The notes below the pieces were generated by a model. That model searched no databases and had not been told where the DNA came from. It was given only the letters and a program-made list of their open reading frames with translations. Source: Mumia flava (GTDB lineage: Bacteria; Actinomycetota; Actinomycetes; Propionibacteriales; Nocardioidaceae). From it: a stretch of 64,000 nucleotides of DNA. The DNA is taken from assembly GCF_002797495.1 (NCBI RefSeq), contig NZ_PGEZ01000001.1:2170001-2234000 (forward strand), in the 5' to 3' direction. The translations under genes were made by a program, and so were the position numbers. Positions 853 through 63,967 of this stretch are shown piece by piece. The number at the start of each line of letters is the position of its first letter. Position 1 is the first letter of the stretch.

Positions 853-988
853 CCCTCCCCGTTCGTCGAGGCCGAGCGCAGCCTCTCCCCGTTCGTCGAG
901 GCCGAGCGCAGCCTCTCCCCGTTCGTCGAGGCCGAGCGCAGCCTCTCCCCGTTCGTCGAGGCCGAGCGCAGCGAGGATCGAGACGCGC
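853..988. repeat. Four tandem copies of a 30-bp interspersed repeat
   Basis: A 30-bp unit with core TTCGTCGAGGCCGAGCGCAG is repeated four times without spacers, and the last copy continues into GAGGATCGAGAC. The array starts 3 bp after the serA stop and ends just before the DUF1697 stop, so it lies between two convergent genes. Related copies occur near 3.4, 20.1, 26.9, 32.1 and 63.9 kb. The sequence is rich in TCGAG palindromes and could fold as a bidirectional transcription stop, which is inference. Confidence 0.9.
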
Positions 989-2754: not shown

Positions 2755-3603
2755 TCAACGCCCGATTGCGATGACCGGAACCTTCCGAGGGGCGAGGTGA
2801 TTCATCGTCCAGCGAATGAATCGGCGGCGTGCGGAGACGCAGCCGGCGGTGGCGCCGTCGCCGTTGACGTGCAGGAAGATCCCGGAGCCCCGCCGGCGGA
2901 CCGCGTTCGGCGGCCGGTTGAAGTCGATCACGACCGACCACCGGTACTGCCGGCCGTAGTCCCGAAGGCGCTCGGAGGAGTTGGGCACGGACGGTGCGAG
3001 CCACCAGCGGAACCCGCCCGCGCGCTTGTTCCGCAACGTGTTGTAGTACGCCGAGCGGTTGTCCTGGACCCAGTAGTCGCCCGCGCGGACGCGATGGAAC
3101 GGCATCCGTGCCCGGGGCGTACGGCGGTGGTTCCCGAACGTCTCCGTCATCGTGAACGACCCGATCGGCGTTGTCCCGGTCCACTGCTTGCGCTGCGACG
3201 CCTTCACCAGCCCGCCGTACCCGATCCGGCCCGAGGACGTGCGCCGGCGCTTCACCCACTGGCCGTCGCGTCGGACCCAGTACGTGACGGTGGCGCGATA
3301 GCCCGAGCGTCGGTTGACCGTGATCACCTGGCGGGTGCCCGCCCGAAGACCGACCCTCACGCCGCCGAGACGGATCCGCTCGACGACCCGGGCGCCGGCG
3401 GTGGACGGCACTCGATCACTCGCTGCGCTCGCGCCTCGAGCACCGGAGGCTCCTTCGATGGTCGAGGCGGAGCGGAGGGCGGTTCCTTCGATGGTCGAGG
3501 CGGAGCGGAGCGACGATCGAGACCCCTCCGCCGCCGCAGGCCCGACCGGAACGACCAGCGCCCCGCACGCCATCACCATCACCGCCGTACGCAGAGGTCT
3601 CAA
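2755..3603 (-). CDS. Secreted L,D-transpeptidase-like protein (YkuD fold)
   Basis: The C-terminal 200 residues end in an L,D-transpeptidase active-site block: GIFLHVNGDGATAGCVSARR, with the conserved histidine and the nucleophilic cysteine in the TxGCVS pattern. The family links or anchors peptidoglycan stem peptides outside the membrane. I choose a TTG start whose TTGA overlaps the stop of the upstream reductase gene: GAGGGGAG lies about 8 nt before it, and it gives a clean signal peptide (basic RPLR, hydrophobic core, then AAAEG). A GTG farther upstream at 3645 would overlap the reductase gene more. Right after the signal peptide, two in-frame copies of LRSASTIEG come from an interspersed DNA repeat, probably a surface-exposed linker. 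The protein is at the short end for this group and lacks a recognisable Ig-like domain. Confidence 0.8.
   Translation of the reverse strand: MRPLRTAVMVMACGALVVPVGPAAAEGSRSSLRSASTIEGTALRSASTIEGASGARGASAASDRVPSTAGARVVERIRLGGVRVGLRAGTRQVITVNRRSGYRATVTYWVRRDGQWVKRRRTSSGRIGYGGLVKASQRKQWTGTTPIGSFTMTETFGNHRRTPRARMPFHRVRAGDYWVQDNRSAYYNTLRNKRAGGFRWWLAPSVPNSSERLRDYGRQYRWSVVIDFNRPPNAVRRRGSGIFLHVNGDGATAGCVSARRRFIRWTMNHLAPRKVPVIAIGR
3410..3535. repeat. Interspersed repeat copies inside the L,D-transpeptidase gene
   Basis: Two direct copies of TCCTTCGATGGTCGAGGCGG (3452-3471 and 3484-3503), the last followed by CGATCGAGACC, plus a copy in the other orientation at about 3411-3440. They belong to the same family as the arrays at 0.9, 20.1 and 63.9 kb. 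They are translated as the LRSASTIEG repeats behind the signal peptide. Confidence 0.8.
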
Positions 3604-4541
3604 GGAACCGGCTCCCCTCGCGCCGTCGTCCACAGCGACCACCACTGCTCGCGGCTCATCGCGGCTGCGACGTGCTCGGCGTCCCCGCAGGCGCGGATCC
3701 GCTCCGGTGAGGTCGTCCCCACGACGGCGACGATCATCGCGGGATGGCGCAGCAGCCAGCCGACGACCACGGACTCAGGGGTGGTCCCGAGCTCGGCGGC
3801 GTACTTGCCGACGAGGCCCGCGGTCGCGCGGTCGGCGTCGGAGGTGGGCCGTGCTCCCGTGTAGCGGCCCTGGGCGAGCGAGCCGTACGCCTGGATCGTG
3901 ATCGCCTCGGACACGCAGTGCTCCAGCGTCCCGAGCGACCCGACGGACGTGCTCGCCCCGGCATGGTTGACCAGGACCCCCGCCTCGATCAGGTCGCGGT
4001 GCGCGAGACTCAGCTCGACCTGGTCGACCTCGATCGGGCGCCGGAGGGCACGGGCCAGATGGGCCATCTGCGCCGCCCCCATGTTGGAGACGCCGAACCC
4101 CACGACCCGGCCGTCGCGGTACAGGGTGTCGAACGCGTCGGCGACCTCCTCGGCCACCATGAGGGGATCCGGTCGGTGGAGGAGCAGCCGGTCCACGTGG
4201 TCGATGCCGAGGCGCTCGAGCGAGCCTGCGACGGCGGTGAGGATCGCCTCGTGCGACAGGTCGTACGCATTGCCGCCGTGCGGCTCGGCGTCGGGCGCGC
4301 CGCCCAGGACGATCCCGCACTTCGTCTGGATCGTGAGGGTCTCCCGGAGCCCGGGGTGACGCTTCAGGACGCGGCCGAACACGGTCTCGGCAGACCCGGC
4401 GCCGTAGTTGTCGGCGTGGTCGAACTGCCGGATCCCCAGCTCGTACGCGGCCAGCACGGCCTGCTCGGCCCGGTCGACGTCCTCCTCGGTCGGGTGGGGG
4501 GAGCCGGAGCCGAGACCCATGCAGCCGTACGCGAGCCTCAC
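3600..4541 (-). CDS. Aldo/keto reductase
   Basis: A 313-aa NADPH-dependent oxidoreductase of the aldo/keto reductase TIM-barrel family. The family tetrad is visible: the Asp of GIRQFDHADNYGAGSAE together with its Tyr, the Lys of TIQTKCG, and the His of LLLHRPDP. The C-terminal VVGTTSPERIRAC segment is the usual cofactor phosphate-binding region. The substrate cannot be told from sequence. A longer open frame extends upstream, but it is arginine/proline-rich non-family sequence, so I start at GTG (MRLAYGCMGLG), which gives the usual length. Its stop overlaps the TTG start of the L,D-transpeptidase gene by 4 nt. Confidence 0.88.
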   Translation of the reverse strand: MRLAYGCMGLGSGSPHPTEEDVDRAEQAVLAAYELGIRQFDHADNYGAGSAETVFGRVLKRHPGLRETLTIQTKCGIVLGGAPDAEPHGGNAYDLSHEAILTAVAGSLERLGIDHVDRLLLHRPDPLMVAEEVADAFDTLYRDGRVVGFGVSNMGAAQMAHLARALRRPIEVDQVELSLAHRDLIEAGVLVNHAGASTSVGSLGTLEHCVSEAITIQAYGSLAQGRYTGARPTSDADRATAGLVGKYAAELGTTPESVVVGWLLRHPAMIVAVVGTTSPERIRACGDAEHVAAAMSREQWWSLWTTARGEPVP

Positions 4542-4581
4542 CCGGCCATCATCACCCCGGCCCTGCCCGGACGCGAATCGC

Positions 4582-5691
4582 TCAGGCGACGGCGGTCCGC
4601 TCGACCTCACGCAGGGCCGAGCGGGCGGCGACCCGTCCCGCGCGGTTGGCGCCGATCGTGGAGGCCGACGGACCGTACCCCACGAGCTGGACCCGGTGGT
4701 CGCGTGCCGCGGTGGTCGGCGTGTGGGCATCCTCGCGCGCCACGAGCCGAACGCCGCCGCTCGTCTCGCGCAGCCGCAGGGGCGCCAGGTGGTCGAGCAC
4801 GGCGCGGAACCCGGTCGCCCACACGATCGCGTCGGCGCGACGGAACGTGCCGTCGGCCATCCGCACGCCCTCGGGCTCGATCGCGGTGAACATCGGGTGG
4901 CGCTCGTACGCGCCGAGCGCGGCTGCGCGCTGCTCCTGCGGGCGGAGTGCGAGCCCGGTCACGCTCACGACGCTCTGCGGTGGCAGTCCTCGGCGTACGC
5001 GGTCCTCGACGAGCGCGACGGCATCGCGCCCGGCGGCGGGGTCGAAGTCGTCGGTCCGCCAGACGGGTTCGCGGCGGGTCACCCAGGTCGTCGACGCCGC
5101 GCCCCCGGCGAGCTCGCCGAGGATCTGCACGGCCGACGCGCCACCGCCGACGACGACCACGTCGAGCCCCGCCAGCTCGTCCGGGCCGGTGTAGTCGTGG
5201 GTGTGCAGCTGGCGTCCGCGGAACGTCGCCGCACCGGGGTAGCTCGGCCAGAACGGGCGCTCCCAGGTGCCGGTCGCGTTGATCAGGGCGCGGGTCCGCC
5301 ACGTGCCGGCGTCGGTGTGGACCAGCAGATCGCCGGTCGGCTCCGCTGGGTCGGCGTTCGCGACCCTCCGTACGCGGACGGGCCGGACGACGGGGAGGCC
5401 GAAGCGGTCCTCGTAGTCCGCGTAGTAGGCCGGGACGGTGTCACGCGCAGCGGTGTCGCCGTCGGCGTGCGGGGCGTCGAGCCCGGGGAGCTTCGCGATC
5501 CCGTGGACATCGGCCATCGTGAGCGTCCGCCACCGGTGCTGCCACGCGCCGCCTGGGGCTGGGTTCGCGTCGAGCACGACGAAGCGCGCCCCCAGTCGGC
5601 GCAGGTGGTACGCAGCGGACAGCCCGGCCTGGCCGGCACCGATCACGACGACGTCGACGACATCGCGTACGGCGTCGGCGGGGGAACTCAC
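4582..5691 (-). CDS. Flavin-dependent NAD(P)-binding monooxygenase
   Basis: The 369-aa protein opens with a FAD-binding Rossmann motif (VVVIGAGQAGLSAAYHLRRLG), then the GGAWQHRW segment typical of this group, a second dinucleotide motif (VVVVGGGASAVQILGEL) for NADPH, and the ATGF motif (IVWATGFRAVLDHL) found in flavin monooxygenases such as ArsO-type and Baeyer-Villiger-like enzymes. The substrate is unknown. I start at GTG 5691, just before the FAD motif. The open frame continues upstream through a 22-bp tandem repeat and a palindromic element, whose translation looks unrelated. The gene follows fadH on the same strand after about 200 bp of repeat DNA, so it probably has its own promoter. 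Confidence 0.82.
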   Translation of the reverse strand: MSSPADAVRDVVDVVVIGAGQAGLSAAYHLRRLGARFVVLDANPAPGGAWQHRWRTLTMADVHGIAKLPGLDAPHADGDTAARDTVPAYYADYEDRFGLPVVRPVRVRRVANADPAEPTGDLLVHTDAGTWRTRALINATGTWERPFWPSYPGAATFRGRQLHTHDYTGPDELAGLDVVVVGGGASAVQILGELAGGAASTTWVTRREPVWRTDDFDPAAGRDAVALVEDRVRRGLPPQSVVSVTGLALRPQEQRAAALGAYERHPMFTAIEPEGVRMADGTFRRADAIVWATGFRAVLDHLAPLRLRETSGGVRLVAREDAHTPTTAARDHRVQLVGYGPSASTIGANRAGRVAARSALREVERTAVA

Positions 5692-5720: not shown

Positions 5721-5782
5721 TGTTCCGGCGCTCGCAGTCCGTTGTTCCGGCGCTCGCCGTCCGTTGTTCGGCGCCTGCAGTC
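5721..5782. repeat. Three imperfect 22-bp tandem repeats
   Basis: Units starting TGTTCCGGCGCTCGCAGTCC at 5721, 5743 and 5765; the third is shortened and diverged. They lie just upstream of the chosen start of the monooxygenase and abut the palindromic element at 5779. They could be part of that gene's control region or simple repeat expansion. Confidence 0.75.
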
Positions 5783-5870
5783 TCCGTAGCCAACTGGGGA
5801 GATCCCCACTCGGCGCGGGAAACCTTCCGTGCCAGGTGACGGTCTCCGTAGCCGGCTACGCAGACCGTCA
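5779..5870. repeat. Palindromic repeat element, copy 1
   Basis: An element of about 90 bp with a conserved core (GGCGCGGGAAACC, then CCAGGTG) between outer inverted segments that both begin GTCTCCGTAGCC. The right end (5842-5865) is itself nearly palindromic. The core matches the element at 45892-45977. Within it, GGCGC pairs with GTGCC here and with GCGCC in the other copy, a compensated change that keeps the hairpin. Confidence 0.75.
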
Positions 5871-20051: not shown

Positions 20052-20157
20052 GGTCTCGATCGCTCGCTCCGCTCGCGCCTCGACCAGCGGGGGTGCCGCT
20101 CCGCTCGCGCGCCTCGACCAGCGGGGGTGCGGCTCCGCTCGCGCCTCGACCAGCGGG
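20052..20157. repeat. Three tandem copies of the interspersed repeat
   Basis: Copies of CTCCGCTCGCGCCTCGACCA begin at 20067, 20099 (with a 2-bp insertion) and 20133, preceded by GGTCTCGATCGCTCG. This is the same family as the 0.9-kb array, read from the other strand. It sits between the convergent ilvA and cupin genes. Confidence 0.85.
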
Positions 20158-31560: not shown

Positions 31561-33342
31561 TCAGACGGCGACAGGGTCGCGCTCGGGGTTCACGATCACG
31601 ATGCTGCTGCGGGCGTGGCGCCACAGCTCCGCGCTCGCCGACTCCTCCATCAGAGCGGCGAGGCCGCCGTGCTCGGGCACGCCGATCACGAGGGCGTGGG
31701 CGTGGTGGGCGTTGGCGTACTCGGCGACCGTCCGCCCCGCGGCGCCGTGGCCGCGAACGTGCCGCAGGACGTGCCCGACCGCGGGGACGCCCGCATCGGC
31801 GAGGGCGACCAGGTGCGTACGGACCAGCGCCTGCGCAGCCGCGAAGGCCTCGGTCTCGACGGCGCCGTCCGGCGTGATCGCACTCTCCTGCGCGTGGACG
31901 ACGTGCACGGTGCGTCCGTAGCGGGCCGCGAGCCGTCCCGCCGCCGCGACCACCTCGGCCGCCTGCGAGGACGCGTCGATCGCAGCCACGGTGATGCCGT
32001 CGGTCTCCGCGTCCACCCGCACGGGCTGCCGTACGACGTGGTCGACCGGGACCGCGGCAGGGTCTCGATCCCCGCTCCGCCCGGCCTCGACCGGCGGGGC
32101 CTCGGCCGGCGGGGCCTCGGCCGGCACCTCGACGGACTCGGCCTGCGCGAGCTCGGCCTCACCGAGCTGCCGGTGCGCCGTCGCGAGGATCGCGATCGCG
32201 ACGACGAGCGCGGCGGAGGCGATGTAGAAGGGCACGCGGATGTTCCACGCCTCGACCATCTTCCCGGCCGCGAACGGCGCGAGCCCGCCTCCGATGAACC
32301 GCACGAACCCGTACGCTGCCGAGGCGATCGGTCGATCCACGGGCGAGATCGTCATGACGGCCTGCGTCGTCACCGTGTTGTTGATGCCGATGAAGACGCC
32401 GGCGGTGATCACGGCGCCGATGAGCACGGCTCGGTCCTCGACGAAGATCGCGATCACCAGCACGACGACCGCGAACAGCGCGAGGTTCGCGTACAGGGTG
32501 CGGGCGAGACCGAAGCGCGCCTGGAGCCGGGGAGCGCCGACGACCGAGAACAGCGCCACGAGCAGCCCCCACGCGAAGAACACGAACCCGAGCTGGATCG
32601 CGCCCAGGTCCATCGGGAACGGCGTGTAGCCGAGGACGGTGAAGAACGCCCAGTTGTAGAAGAGCGCGGTGAGCGAGAGCGTGAGCAGGCCGCGGTGCCG
32701 CAGCGCCCGGATCGGGTCGAGGACCGACACCTTCCTCTCGGGGATCGGCATCGGCTCGACCAGCACGAGCGTCGCGATCAGCGCGATCGACATCAGGGCG
32801 GCGACCCCGAAGAACGGCCCGCGCCAGCTCAGCTCGCCGAGCAGGCCGCCGAGCAGCGGCCCCACGGCGATCCCGAGCCCGAGCGCGGCCTCGTACAGGA
32901 TGATCGCGCCCACGAACCCGCCCGACGCCGACGCCACGATGACGGCGAGCGAGGTCGCGATGAACAGCGCGTTCCCGACGCCCCACCCGGCACGGAATCC
33001 GACGATCTGCCCGATGCTGTCCGACGCGCCGGCGAGCGCGGCGAACACGACGATGACGGCGAGGCCCGCGATCAGGGTGCGCTTGGCGCCGATCCGGCTG
33101 GACACCCACCCCGTGACGAGCATCGCGACCGCGGTCACGACCAGATAGCTCGTGAACAGCAGGGTCACCTGGCTCGGCGACGCGTCCAGGTCGGAGGCGA
33201 TCGCCGGCAGGATCGGGTCCACGAGGCCGATGCCCATGAACGAGACGACGCAGGCGAACGCGACCGCCCACACCGCCTTGGGCTGGCTGAACGGGCTCGC
33301 CGCGGGGGCGTGGAGGTGCGACGAGGTCGCAGGTGAGGTCAC
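31561..33342 (-). CDS. MFS transporter fused to a universal stress (UspA) domain
   Basis: A 593-aa fusion. Residues 1-405 are a 12-helix MFS transporter (WAVAFACVVSFMGIGLVDPILPAIASDLDASPSQVTLLFTSYLVVTAVAMLVTGWVSSRIGAKRTLIAG, with the GWVSSRIGAKR motif). Residues 410-440 form a Glu/Ala/Pro linker that ends in VEAGRSGDRDPAA, encoded by a copy of the interspersed DNA repeat. Residues 440-593 are a UspA fold (ITVAAIDASSQAAEVVAAAGRLAARYGRTVHVVHA...HALVIGVPEHGG) with a weak nucleotide-binding glycine pattern. The UspA part should be cytoplasmic and may adjust transport to energy state. Its ATG overlaps the marR stop by 4 nt, so it is regulated by MarR in one operon. Confidence 0.9.
   Translation of the reverse strand: MTSPATSSHLHAPAASPFSQPKAVWAVAFACVVSFMGIGLVDPILPAIASDLDASPSQVTLLFTSYLVVTAVAMLVTGWVSSRIGAKRTLIAGLAVIVVFAALAGASDSIGQIVGFRAGWGVGNALFIATSLAVIVASASGGFVGAIILYEAALGLGIAVGPLLGGLLGELSWRGPFFGVAALMSIALIATLVLVEPMPIPERKVSVLDPIRALRHRGLLTLSLTALFYNWAFFTVLGYTPFPMDLGAIQLGFVFFAWGLLVALFSVVGAPRLQARFGLARTLYANLALFAVVVLVIAIFVEDRAVLIGAVITAGVFIGINNTVTTQAVMTISPVDRPIASAAYGFVRFIGGGLAPFAAGKMVEAWNIRVPFYIASAALVVAIAILATAHRQLGEAELAQAESVEVPAEAPPAEAPPVEAGRSGDRDPAAVPVDHVVRQPVRVDAETDGITVAAIDASSQAAEVVAAAGRLAARYGRTVHVVHAQESAITPDGAVETEAFAAAQALVRTHLVALADAGVPAVGHVLRHVRGHGAAGRTVAEYANAHHAHALVIGVPEHGGLAALMEESASAELWRHARSSIVIVNPERDPVAV
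32059..32125. repeat. Interspersed repeat inside the MFS-UspA linker
   Basis: GGTCTCGATCCCCGCTCCGC followed by GGCCTCGACCGGCGG and two more GGCCTCGGCCGG(CGG) units. It matches the unit order of the 20.1-kb array and is translated as the linker between the transporter and the UspA domain. Confidence 0.75.
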
Positions 33343-33782
33343 GAGGGATCTCCTTCCGTACGGGGGTCGACGAGCCTGATCAGTGCGTCGAACGCAGGCC
33401 GGGCGTCGGCGAGAGCCTGCTGGTCGGCCGGGGACAGGTGGGCGAGCATCTCGGCCAGCCGCTCGGTGCGGGTCGCTCGACGACTCGCCAGCTCGGCCTC
33501 GCCGTCGGACGTGAGTGCGACGAGCACGGCCCGGCGGTCGCCGGGGTCGGACGACCGCGCGACCAGGCCCGTGCGCTCGAGGCGGGTGACCAGCTGGGTC
33601 ATCGCGGGCTGGGAGACGCCTTCGATCGCGGCGAGCTGCGTGAGCCGGATCGGGCCGGAGCGCGACAGCGTGGCCAGCGTCGCCGCCGCGGTCAGCGAGA
33701 GGCCGGCCGGGCTGAGGTGACGCAGCAGCGTGCTGAGGCGCTCGATCGCGCCGGCGAGCTCGGGGGCCTGGGCAGAATGCAT
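33339..33782 (-). CDS. MarR family regulator
   Basis: A 147-aa winged-helix repressor: LSLTAAATLATLSRSGPIRLTQLAAIEGVSQPAMTQLVTRLERTGLVARSSDPGDRRAVLVALTSDGEAEL contains the recognition helix (QPAMTQLVTRLE) and the wing with the DRRA pattern. Overlap of 4 nt with the MFS-UspA start shows an operon, so it most likely represses this transporter until a toxic or phenolic ligand is bound. The start codon lies inside an AT-rich block with an inverted repeat, consistent with autoregulation. Confidence 0.93.
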   Translation of the reverse strand: MHSAQAPELAGAIERLSTLLRHLSPAGLSLTAAATLATLSRSGPIRLTQLAAIEGVSQPAMTQLVTRLERTGLVARSSDPGDRRAVLVALTSDGEAELASRRATRTERLAEMLAHLSPADQQALADARPAFDALIRLVDPRTEGDPS

Positions 33783-33813
33783 AACGTATTTATATTATGT
33801 GCTTATACATATC
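33779..33813 (-). promoter_or_regulatory. AT-rich promoter/operator of marR
   Basis: An exceptionally AT-rich block for this DNA, with inverted repeat GCATAA-N10-TTATGT (33779-33800) that includes the marR start codon, and TATAAA on the minus strand 6 nt before that ATG. Binding of MarR here would block both transcription and the start. The divergent uspA begins 80 bp away. Confidence 0.65.
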
Positions 33814-33862
33814 TCAAGGTGCGTGGGTCGCTTCCTCGGCCCGGAACCGACAGGATGACGGC

Positions 33863-34282
33863 ATGGCTGACACACCGGAACGGATCGGGACGATCGTGGT
33901 GGGCACGGACGGCTCCGCCGGGGCGGAGCGGGCGCTGCACTGGGCGATCGAGGAAGCGTCACTGCGCGGGACGGCGCTCCAGGTCGTCGTCGCGGTCGAC
34001 CCGTCCGGGTCCTCGGTGACGAGCGCGGACGACGGCGAGACCGTGGCAGAGACCGTACGAGCGCAGGCGCGCCGCATCGATCCCGAGGCCGAGGTCAGTG
34101 TCGGTGTGCACGAAGGGGCGCCGGTCGACGTCCTGCTGTCGGTGGCGGCCGGGGCGCAGCTGCTCGTCGTCGGGAGCCACGGGACGTCGTCGATCCGGCA
34201 CAACGCGCTCGGCTCCGTCAGCGACGTGCTGGCACGCGTGTCGCCGTGCCCGGTCGTGATCCTGCCCATGGGCGCCGCCTGA
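33863..34282 (+). CDS. Universal stress protein, single domain
   Basis: A 139-aa UspA protein with the ATP-binding pattern G-2x-G-9x-GS in VVGSHGTSSIRHNALGSVSD and the N-terminal IVVGTDGSAGAERALHWAIEEA strand-helix with its conserved Asp. It should be a cytoplasmic, ATP-binding dimer linked to stasis or low-oxygen survival in actinobacteria. AGGATG lies before the ATG. It is divergent from the marR operon and may share its control region. Confidence 0.92.
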   Translation: MADTPERIGTIVVGTDGSAGAERALHWAIEEASLRGTALQVVVAVDPSGSSVTSADDGETVAETVRAQARRIDPEAEVSVGVHEGAPVDVLLSVAAGAQLLVVGSHGTSSIRHNALGSVSDVLARVSPCPVVILPMGAA

Positions 34283-42033: not shown

Positions 42034-42124
42034 CGTTGCCGGCAACGCAACCCGGATCCGGGCACCGCAGAATCACGTGATTCCGCGGTGCCCGGTTCGC
42101 GTTTCCGTTGCCGGCAACGGAAAC
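42034..42124. repeat. Palindrome cluster after fadB
   Basis: Three palindromes in 91 bp: CGTTGCCGGCAACG (42034-42047); a 34-bp inverted repeat centred on GAATCACGTGATTC with one mismatched pair (42060-42093); and a perfect 24-bp palindrome (42101-42124) whose centre repeats CGTTGCCGGCAACG. The middle hairpin may end fadAB transcription. The two flanking copies of the same 14-bp palindrome suggest a mobile or processed repeat rather than a simple terminator. Confidence 0.75.
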
Positions 42125-42178
42125 GTGCACCCCTGAACTCGGGTTGCGGGTCCGCGCAAGCGGTGCGTTGGATGGTTC

Positions 42179-45879: not shown

Positions 45880-45891
45880 GCGGCGTCGGCA

Positions 45892-45977
45892 GACTCCCCA
45901 GCCAACTGGGGAGACCCGCAGCTGGCGCGGGAAACCATCGGCGCCAGGTGCCGGGTTCCCCAGTTGGCTGGGGAGTC
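45892..45977. repeat. Palindromic repeat element, copy 2, with 21-bp terminal inverted repeats
   Basis: The 21-bp ends at 45892-45912 and 45957-45977 are perfect reverse complements (outer bases GACTCCCCAGCC and GGCTGGGGAGTC). The core GGCGCGGGAAACC, then GCCAGGTG is shared with 5779-5870. There is no coding capacity, so it is MITE-like or a REP-type element. It lies between the convergent ankyrin and cebR genes. Confidence 0.8.
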
Positions 45978-46049
45978 CGCCAAGGCGAGTTGGCTGGGGA
46001 GTCCGCCACGGCAGGAGGCCGCCTGGGGAGTCCGCCACGGCGGGAGGCC
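45978..46049. repeat. Partial copies of the element's right end
   Basis: Two further truncated copies of the right terminal segment: GTTGGCTGGGGAGTCCGCCA at about 45989 and TGGGGAGTCCGCCACGGC at about 46024, each followed by GGAGGCC. They are direct repeats of the full element's end and lie just after the cebR stop. Confidence 0.7.
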
Positions 46050-63053: not shown

Positions 63054-63967
63054 TGACCGACGCCGCCACCGACCCCGACGTGCTGACCCCCCTGCTCGCC
63101 GACCTCGCCGCGGAGGGTGAGCAGCTCGACGCGGTCGTCGCCGGCCTCGACGACGCCGGGTGGTCGTCCCCGACTCCTGCGCCGGGATGGACGGTCGCCC
63201 ACCAGGTCGCGCACCTGCACTGGACCGACGAGGCCTCCCTGGCCGCGATCGAGGGCGGAGAGGCGTTCGGCGACCTGATGAAGCGCGCCGCCTCCGACCC
63301 GACCGGGTTCGTCGACGCCGAGGCCGAGCGCATCGCCGCCGGATCGGCCGAGGAGCTGCTGTCCGCGTGGCGCGACGGGCGGGCCCGGCTCTCCGACGCG
63401 CTGCGCGCCGTCCCCCGTGGGACGAAGATCGCGTGGTTCGGCCCGCCGATGAGTGCCGCGTCGATGGCGACAGCCCGGCTGATGGAGACCTGGGCGCACG
63501 GACGCGACGTGGCCGAGGCGCTCGGCGTCGAGCTCCCGCGCGACCGTCGCGCCGAGCACGTCGCCTACCTCGGCTTCCGGACGCGCGCCTTCGCCTACCT
63601 CGTGCGCGGCCGCGAGATGCCGGACGCGCCCGTACGGGTCGAGCTGCACGGGCCCGGCGGGGAGCGTTGGGCCTGGGGGCCCGAGGACGCGCCGGACCGG
63701 GTCACGGGCGACGGGTACGACTTCGCGCTGCTCGCGACACGTCGCCGGACCCGCGACGACGTGGACGTGGCTGCGCACGGCGCGGCTGCCGACGAGTGGC
63801 TCGACATCGTCCAGGCGTTCGCGGGGCTGCCCGGCCCCGACCCGAAGCCGCGCTCCGGGCGGGTCGACGCCGTGCCCCTCTCGCCGTCGGTCGAGGCCGA
63901 GCCTTTCTCCCCGTCGGTCGAGGCCGAGCGGAGCGAGGATCGAGACCCCGCCGGAGGTGTCTCGTGA
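63053..63967 (+). CDS. TIGR03084 family metal-binding protein (mycothiol-dependent isomerase fold)
   Basis: A 304-aa DinB-like helical protein: APGWTVAHQVAHLHWTDEASLAAI with a metal-binding His pair and LMETWAHGRDVAEALG with the third His, the set used by mycothiol-dependent maleylpyruvate isomerases. The reaction in this locus is unknown. The last 35 residues (LSPSVEAEPFSPSVEAERSEDRDPAGG) are translated from the interspersed DNA repeat and are not part of the family. The stop overlaps the next GTG (GTGA). Confidence 0.88.
   Translation: MTDAATDPDVLTPLLADLAAEGEQLDAVVAGLDDAGWSSPTPAPGWTVAHQVAHLHWTDEASLAAIEGGEAFGDLMKRAASDPTGFVDAEAERIAAGSAEELLSAWRDGRARLSDALRAVPRGTKIAWFGPPMSAASMATARLMETWAHGRDVAEALGVELPRDRRAEHVAYLGFRTRAFAYLVRGREMPDAPVRVELHGPGGERWAWGPEDAPDRVTGDGYDFALLATRRRTRDDVDVAAHGAAADEWLDIVQAFAGLPGPDPKPRSGRVDAVPLSPSVEAEPFSPSVEAERSEDRDPAGGVS
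63878..63950. repeat. Interspersed repeat forming a protein C-terminus
   Basis: Two direct units containing CCGTCGGTCGAGGCCGAGC (about 63884 and 63911); the second continues GGAGCGAGGATCGAGACC, as in the array at 0.9 kb. Both are read in frame as the tail of the TIGR03084 protein. Confidence 0.85.

Follow-up and report, generated by a model that had tools for sequence, protein, structure and literature searches.

The window, i.e. the complete 64-kb stretch of Mumia flava DNA that was analysed, carries on its minus strand (31561..33342) a single uninterrupted ORF of 593 aa with a GTG start, encoding an MFS-Usp fusion protein. The initial annotation as an MFS-UspA fusion is borne out by Pfam, with hits to MFS_1 (PF07690; E-value 2e-40, 139.2 bits against a gathering score of 33.4) and to Usp (PF00582; residues 452-584, E-value 1e-9, 39.5 bits against a gathering score of 24). 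The MFS transporter part (residues 22-403; 32134..33279, minus strand) has a DHA1-like fold and is followed by an interdomain linker (residues 404-447; 32002..32133, minus strand) and the Usp domain (residues 451-584; 31591..31992, minus strand). An AlphaFold2 model, built from 25 sequences, has a mean pLDDT of 82. Its long helices extend to residue 403 and strands alternate with helices from residue 451 onwards, while the pLDDT drops below 50 at residues 403-433 and 435-447, almost throughout the linker. The solved structures nearest to this model by fold include NorA, VMAT2 and MdfA, and a profile comparison links the first part to NorA and the second part to TB31.7 and other Usp proteins. 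The fusion thus resembles the DHA1 MFS drug exporters NorA and MdfA in fold and profile matches, but differs from them in its C-terminal Usp domain and in that none of the best 25 of 32 NCBIfam models reached its curated cut-off. Family membership points to a DHA1-type exporter as the most likely identity of the protein. The start of the fusion gene overlaps by 4 nt with a MarR-family regulator gene (33339..33782, minus strand), and both genes probably form one operon. Upstream, a separate, stand-alone Usp gene is encoded divergently (33797..34282, plus strand).

As read off the alignment, the nucleotide-binding motif of the Usp domain is degenerate (G554-4X-G559-9X-A569-S570) and does not match the ATP-binding motif G-2X-G-9X-G-S/T given in an excerpt of PMC3673472; according to the same excerpt, TeaD still binds ATP despite a degenerate motif. 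Most of the aligned MFS-Usp fusions likewise have a Usp domain with a degenerate nucleotide motif, an Ala replacing the last Gly. Excerpts of PMC5549992 and PMC3673472 describe Usp proteins that act with or regulate transporters, such as TeaD with TeaABC and Rv2623 with Rv1747. These pairs share with the fusion the combination of a Usp domain and a transporter, but are separate proteins with other transporter types, whereas here Usp is fused to an MFS protein. By family membership, the cytosolic Usp domain probably regulates, scaffolds or tethers the fused exporter. Among the matches listed, the titles and abstract openings of open-access PMC articles contained no mention of an MFS-Usp fusion or of a repeat such as the one described below in Nocardioidaceae.

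Within the linker, a repeat-derived stretch (32059..32091, minus strand) encodes VEAGRSGDRDP (residues 418-428). Its 31-nt core (32061-32091) is identical to the repeat in 29 of 31 bases, and the neighbouring bases complete the peptide. Both this phrase and its counterpart VEAERSEDRDP at 63.9 kb, pointed out in the initial annotation, are confirmed, the latter being encoded in frame near the C-terminus of its ORF by a perfect core copy (63917..63947, plus strand). The claim that the linker DNA matches the repeat also holds: at up to 3 mismatches, the 64-kb window contains 4 core matches, against 0.00 expected from 100 dinucleotide-preserving shuffles. Further copies are a 30-nt tandem array with a repeat core at its end (855..985, plus strand; core 955-985, 2 mismatches), a two-ended copy with inverted ends (3408..3524; B end 3408-3440 on the minus strand, A end 3494-3524 on the plus strand) and a B-end copy (20052..20084, minus strand) that has 0 mismatches and is followed by partial units in tandem. 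The linker copy consists of the A end only, with no adjoining B end, and the 72-nt linker stretch folds no better than its shuffles (z -0.18); it is therefore a fragment or decayed copy of the repeat element. Other inverted repeats, unlike this one in sequence, occur at 42034-42131 and 5837-5870 (palindromes CGTTGCCGGCAACG and CGTAGCCGGCTACG). At 45883-45986 lies a 46-nt inverted repeat with a 12-nt loop, and a 102-nt stretch there is 75% like 5769-5870.

Defined by the 31-nt core GTCGAGGCCGAGCGGAGCGAGGATCGAGACC at up to 3 mismatches, the repeat family occupies 96 places in the 4.4-Mb M. flava genome, compared with 0 for a reversed control pattern. The core was found in none of 57 relatives, 5 congeners among them, leaving M. 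flava as the only positive of 58 genomes. A looser 21-nt pattern (at most 1 mismatch) gave 107 places in M. flava, compared with 0-2 per genome among the 57 relatives. Across 48 genome stretches plus the window, 109 A-type cores (up to 5 mismatches) and 51 B-type 33-nt cores (up to 6) were counted, some places twice because three of these stretches share sequence with the window. Both types occur together in 33 clusters in the stretches, always in opposite orientation and often with tandem partial units in between. An 81-nt copy in the Mfd gene folds into a hairpin whose stem has few unpaired bases (z -10.5), and the 117-nt window copy at 3408-3524 gives a z of -3.8. All six frames of the consensus A and B cores are free of stop codons, which allows them to sit within genes provided that their length preserves the frame.

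The position of the copies relative to genes was taken from our own codon-usage predictor, which is crude and sees only genes that are still open; a copy that had disrupted its gene would therefore score as intergenic. It placed 79 of the 96 copies between genes, 16 within a total of 14 predicted genes and 1 across a gene end. Of the copies within genes, 11 (in 10 genes) are located well inside. Of the 14 hosts, 11 were matched to NCBIfam/Pfam and 5 were compared with congener orthologues. Besides the fusion, the hosts encode Mfd, a heavy-metal P-type ATPase, CobBC, CobI-CobJ, CobN, the error-prone DNA polymerase DnaE2, PaaA (with the copy close to the C-terminus), CoxG, AtuA and an FMO-like enzyme. 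The copies in Mfd, DnaE2 and CobN are in frame, while those in CobBC, CobIJ and AtuA sit between two domains, as in MFS-Usp. In the ATPase gene (L168:4408-6750, minus strand), a two-ended element lies downstream of the DKTG motif of this enzyme.

Different repeats are found in the same loop of Mfd (L151:57-3686; L190-L194) in M. flava and in the congeners G001 (Mumia xiangluensis), G003 and G005, while at this position G002 has a short stretch of unrelated sequence and G004 no insert. A family member forms the end of the insert in G001; this family was located 87 times in G001 and no more than twice in each of 57 other genomes. The family to which the G003 insert belongs was located 71 times in G003, compared with 0-2 times in the remaining congeners and 1-10 times in six genomes from other genera. 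Among the places listed for these families, both occur in the respective Mfd genes, and that of G001 also in its DnaE2. The G005 insert, which shares parts of its arms with the M. flava repeat, was found twice more in 80 kb of G005. A private or nearly private family is thus backed by counts in three of the six genomes (M. flava, G001 and G003) and partly in G005, and the statement applies to these four. DnaE2 of G002-G005 has short inserts. CobN of G001 contains a repeat-like insert, the end of which is 3 bases off the G001 family, and that of G005 contains none; G002-G004 gave no match to CobN. This shared-site pattern is firm for Mfd and suggestive elsewhere.

Bifunctional CobBC (NCBIfam NF053748) is a known two-domain fusion of other enzymes whose linker in M. 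flava also holds the repeat, here as two A cores and one B core. This linker (L174:1497-4085, minus strand) is about 70 residues long and consists largely of repeat units, in which the A cores are translated in a different frame (GRGRAERGSRP). The CobBC fusion is also present in G001 and G005, as one open frame with 0 stops and without this repeat (G005 has no insert, G001 a different one), so that the repeat did not make the CobBC joint either.

According to an excerpt of PMC10969869, Rickettsia palindromic elements (RPEs) are short palindromic repeats that lie in frame in unrelated conserved genes and are translated with them. The M. flava repeat is alike in this respect, with in-frame insertion in unrelated genes among the 14 predicted hosts, orthologues of five of which were compared. 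Next to the RPE palindrome of about 150 bp, its two-ended copies are palindromic at 81 and 117 nt, and the linker copy has one end. It differs in its occurrence in an actinobacterium, its inverted 31/33-nt ends with tandem partial units in between, and the different families at one site in Mumia congeners; the likeness drawn here is one of behaviour. By this analogy, the repeat appears to behave like RPEs in an actinobacterium.

REP sequences with a RAYT have an associated Y1_Tnp (PF01797) transposase gene. Like REP sequences and, in general terms, BIMEs, the repeat is short, highly similar between copies, palindromic and mostly intergenic. The M. flava genome differs in having no Y1_Tnp match at an E-value of 0.001 or below, in a search that was positive in 5 of 14 control genomes. 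A further difference is the 16 copies inside predicted genes, since REPs seldom overlap coding regions, as stated in an excerpt of PMC12306157. Neither exact 30-nt matches of the repeat in viral contigs nor matches of one 101-nt repeat stretch in plasmid or phage collections were found, so that these searches, together with that for Y1_Tnp, revealed no mobile source.

Another possibility, compatible with insertion of the repeat into an older fusion, the reading preferred here, might be that in-gene repeats function as DNA or RNA, for example as a hairpin for a nuclease, a nucleoid protein or recombination, with the peptide as a by-product held in frame by selection. The two-ended elements can form hairpins, as the Mfd copy does, and the recurrence of different families at one Mfd site across congeners is in line with such a role. 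On the other hand, the single-ended linker copy does not fold into this hairpin, and the mostly intergenic location given by the crude predictor argues against a general in-gene role. We consider this function rather unlikely.

For the origin of the fusion, its distribution is informative. Among 146 relatives searched, the congeners M. xiangluensis (G001:C1:370217-371947, also in NZ_WJYO01000001.1) and G005 carry the fusion at 75% identity over nearly the full length, while G002-G004 gave distant MFS matches only, i.e. two of five congeners have it. A scan of public genomes, of which the best 80 of 85 loci were kept, followed by an ORF and Usp-profile search, yielded at least 26 distinct non-window fusion loci (L032, L033, L043 and 23 named ones), namely the two congeners and at least 24 further loci, all without the repeat. 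L126, which has MFS and Usp pieces in a broken frame, was excluded from this count, and L038 and L086, where tblastn matches run past a stop into the second half with no ORF hit by the Usp profile, were counted as MFS only. Hosts include Jiangella, Frankia, Streptomyces, Actinophytocola, Kibdelosporangium and Arthrobacter, as well as a Thermoleophilaceae and an Acetobacteraceae bin. As a protein arrangement, MFS-Usp is old and found mainly in actinobacteria.

An MFS tree of 107 rows (without L031, L061, which is the same place as L032, and the broken-frame loci L126 and L138) groups the window with the two congener fusions at an SH-aLRT of 90. Fusion and non-fusion forms are intermixed in this tree, with at least 7 label changes on starred branches, although the tree is of a quick kind with long-branch warnings and a poorly aligned linker. 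Given these changes, gain or loss of the fusion may have occurred repeatedly. On the sequences compared, the fusion state is labile, yet older than the repeat in this genus.

The initial annotation had suggested that the repeat helped to join or extend two genes. Joining would involve recombination or read-through at a copy between a transporter and a usp gene, and the repeat is indeed located in the joint. Separate MFS and Usp genes with the repeat in between, as envisaged there, were not seen in the loci searched: separate, adjacent genes are known from Paenibacillus, where in 3 of 8 loci (L113, L115 and L125; around 4180-4650) the MFS ORF is followed immediately by a Usp ORF of the same strand, an unfused counterpart found in nature, but these loci are without the repeat. 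The repeat-free fusions in congeners and other genera, against a repeat confined to one of the 58 genomes searched, led us to reject a repeat-made fusion, which the congeners contradict unless they fused independently, and the tree groups them with the window. The same repeat also lies inside Mfd, DnaE2 and CobN, where no gene joining occurred. Joining by the repeat is thus highly improbable, while the second part of the suggestion, extension, stands.

In a structure alignment of the window with 24 named fusions (without L033, L043 and L126; L032 entered as L061), the linker measures 47 aa here compared to 36 in M. xiangluensis, and 6-55 residues (median 26.5) in the other aligned fusions (n = 24). 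Repeat-free fusions with the same linker length in distant genera, named by the initial annotation as counter-evidence, were therefore found as regards the absence of the repeat, but with no common length. The VEAGRSGDRDP phrase, absent from the G001 and G005 linkers, aligns largely to a 9-residue gap in the former and wholly to a longer gap in the latter. This alignment supports the view that the repeat lengthened a linker tolerant of very different lengths. That an Ala/Pro/Glu-rich linker came to resemble the repeat by chance in a 72% GC genome is scarcely credible and was rejected. In favour of chance, many other fusion linkers are likewise rich in Ala, Pro and Glu, the PAEAP units upstream in the linker fall outside the core, and the MFS-only relative L035 (G087) has a similar tail, GSEDRDPG, although this is a peptide likeness with no DNA match at up to 9 mismatches. 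Against it, the 29 of 31 matching bases compare with a shuffle expectation of 0.00, and the 109 non-M. flava loci of L031-L140 match the core with 8 mismatches at best.

We therefore favour, with a probability of about 0.92, an old fusion whose linker gained about 11 residues through the tolerated in-frame entry of one end of a private repeat. A fusion of a DHA1-type MFS and a Usp protein would have existed first; one end of the species-private hairpin repeat would then have entered its linker in frame; and the insert would have been tolerated with the gain in length. The element itself is most likely a short hairpin that spreads by some route through the genome and is carried in genes if the frame is kept. 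Since the fusion came before the repeat, the latter arrived in an existing joint and did not create it. Arrival by insertion is inferred, with the polarity (insertion here versus loss in G001 and G005) resting on three sequences and the absence of the repeat from relatives, and the insert is presumably neutral.

Taken alone, the fusion locus is a neat case of modest reach, and the broader pattern resembles RPEs. We lean towards the view that Mumia species have private hairpin repeat families of common design (ends GGTYTCGA... and ...CTCRACCANCGG) that come to lie, repeatedly and in frame, in the same coding sites of conserved genes (the Mfd loop, perhaps DnaE2 and CobN) and in multidomain linkers, as a fast-changing RPE counterpart in actinobacteria, either through concerted replacement or through recurrent hot-spot insertion. 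The account of a repeat that glued genes together is thereby replaced by a dated case with an older fusion and a younger repeat. In-frame repeat insertion becomes a possible origin of linker and loop sequence in actinobacteria, and the congeners, as replicate insertions at one place, make the spread, turnover and cost of such elements directly testable.
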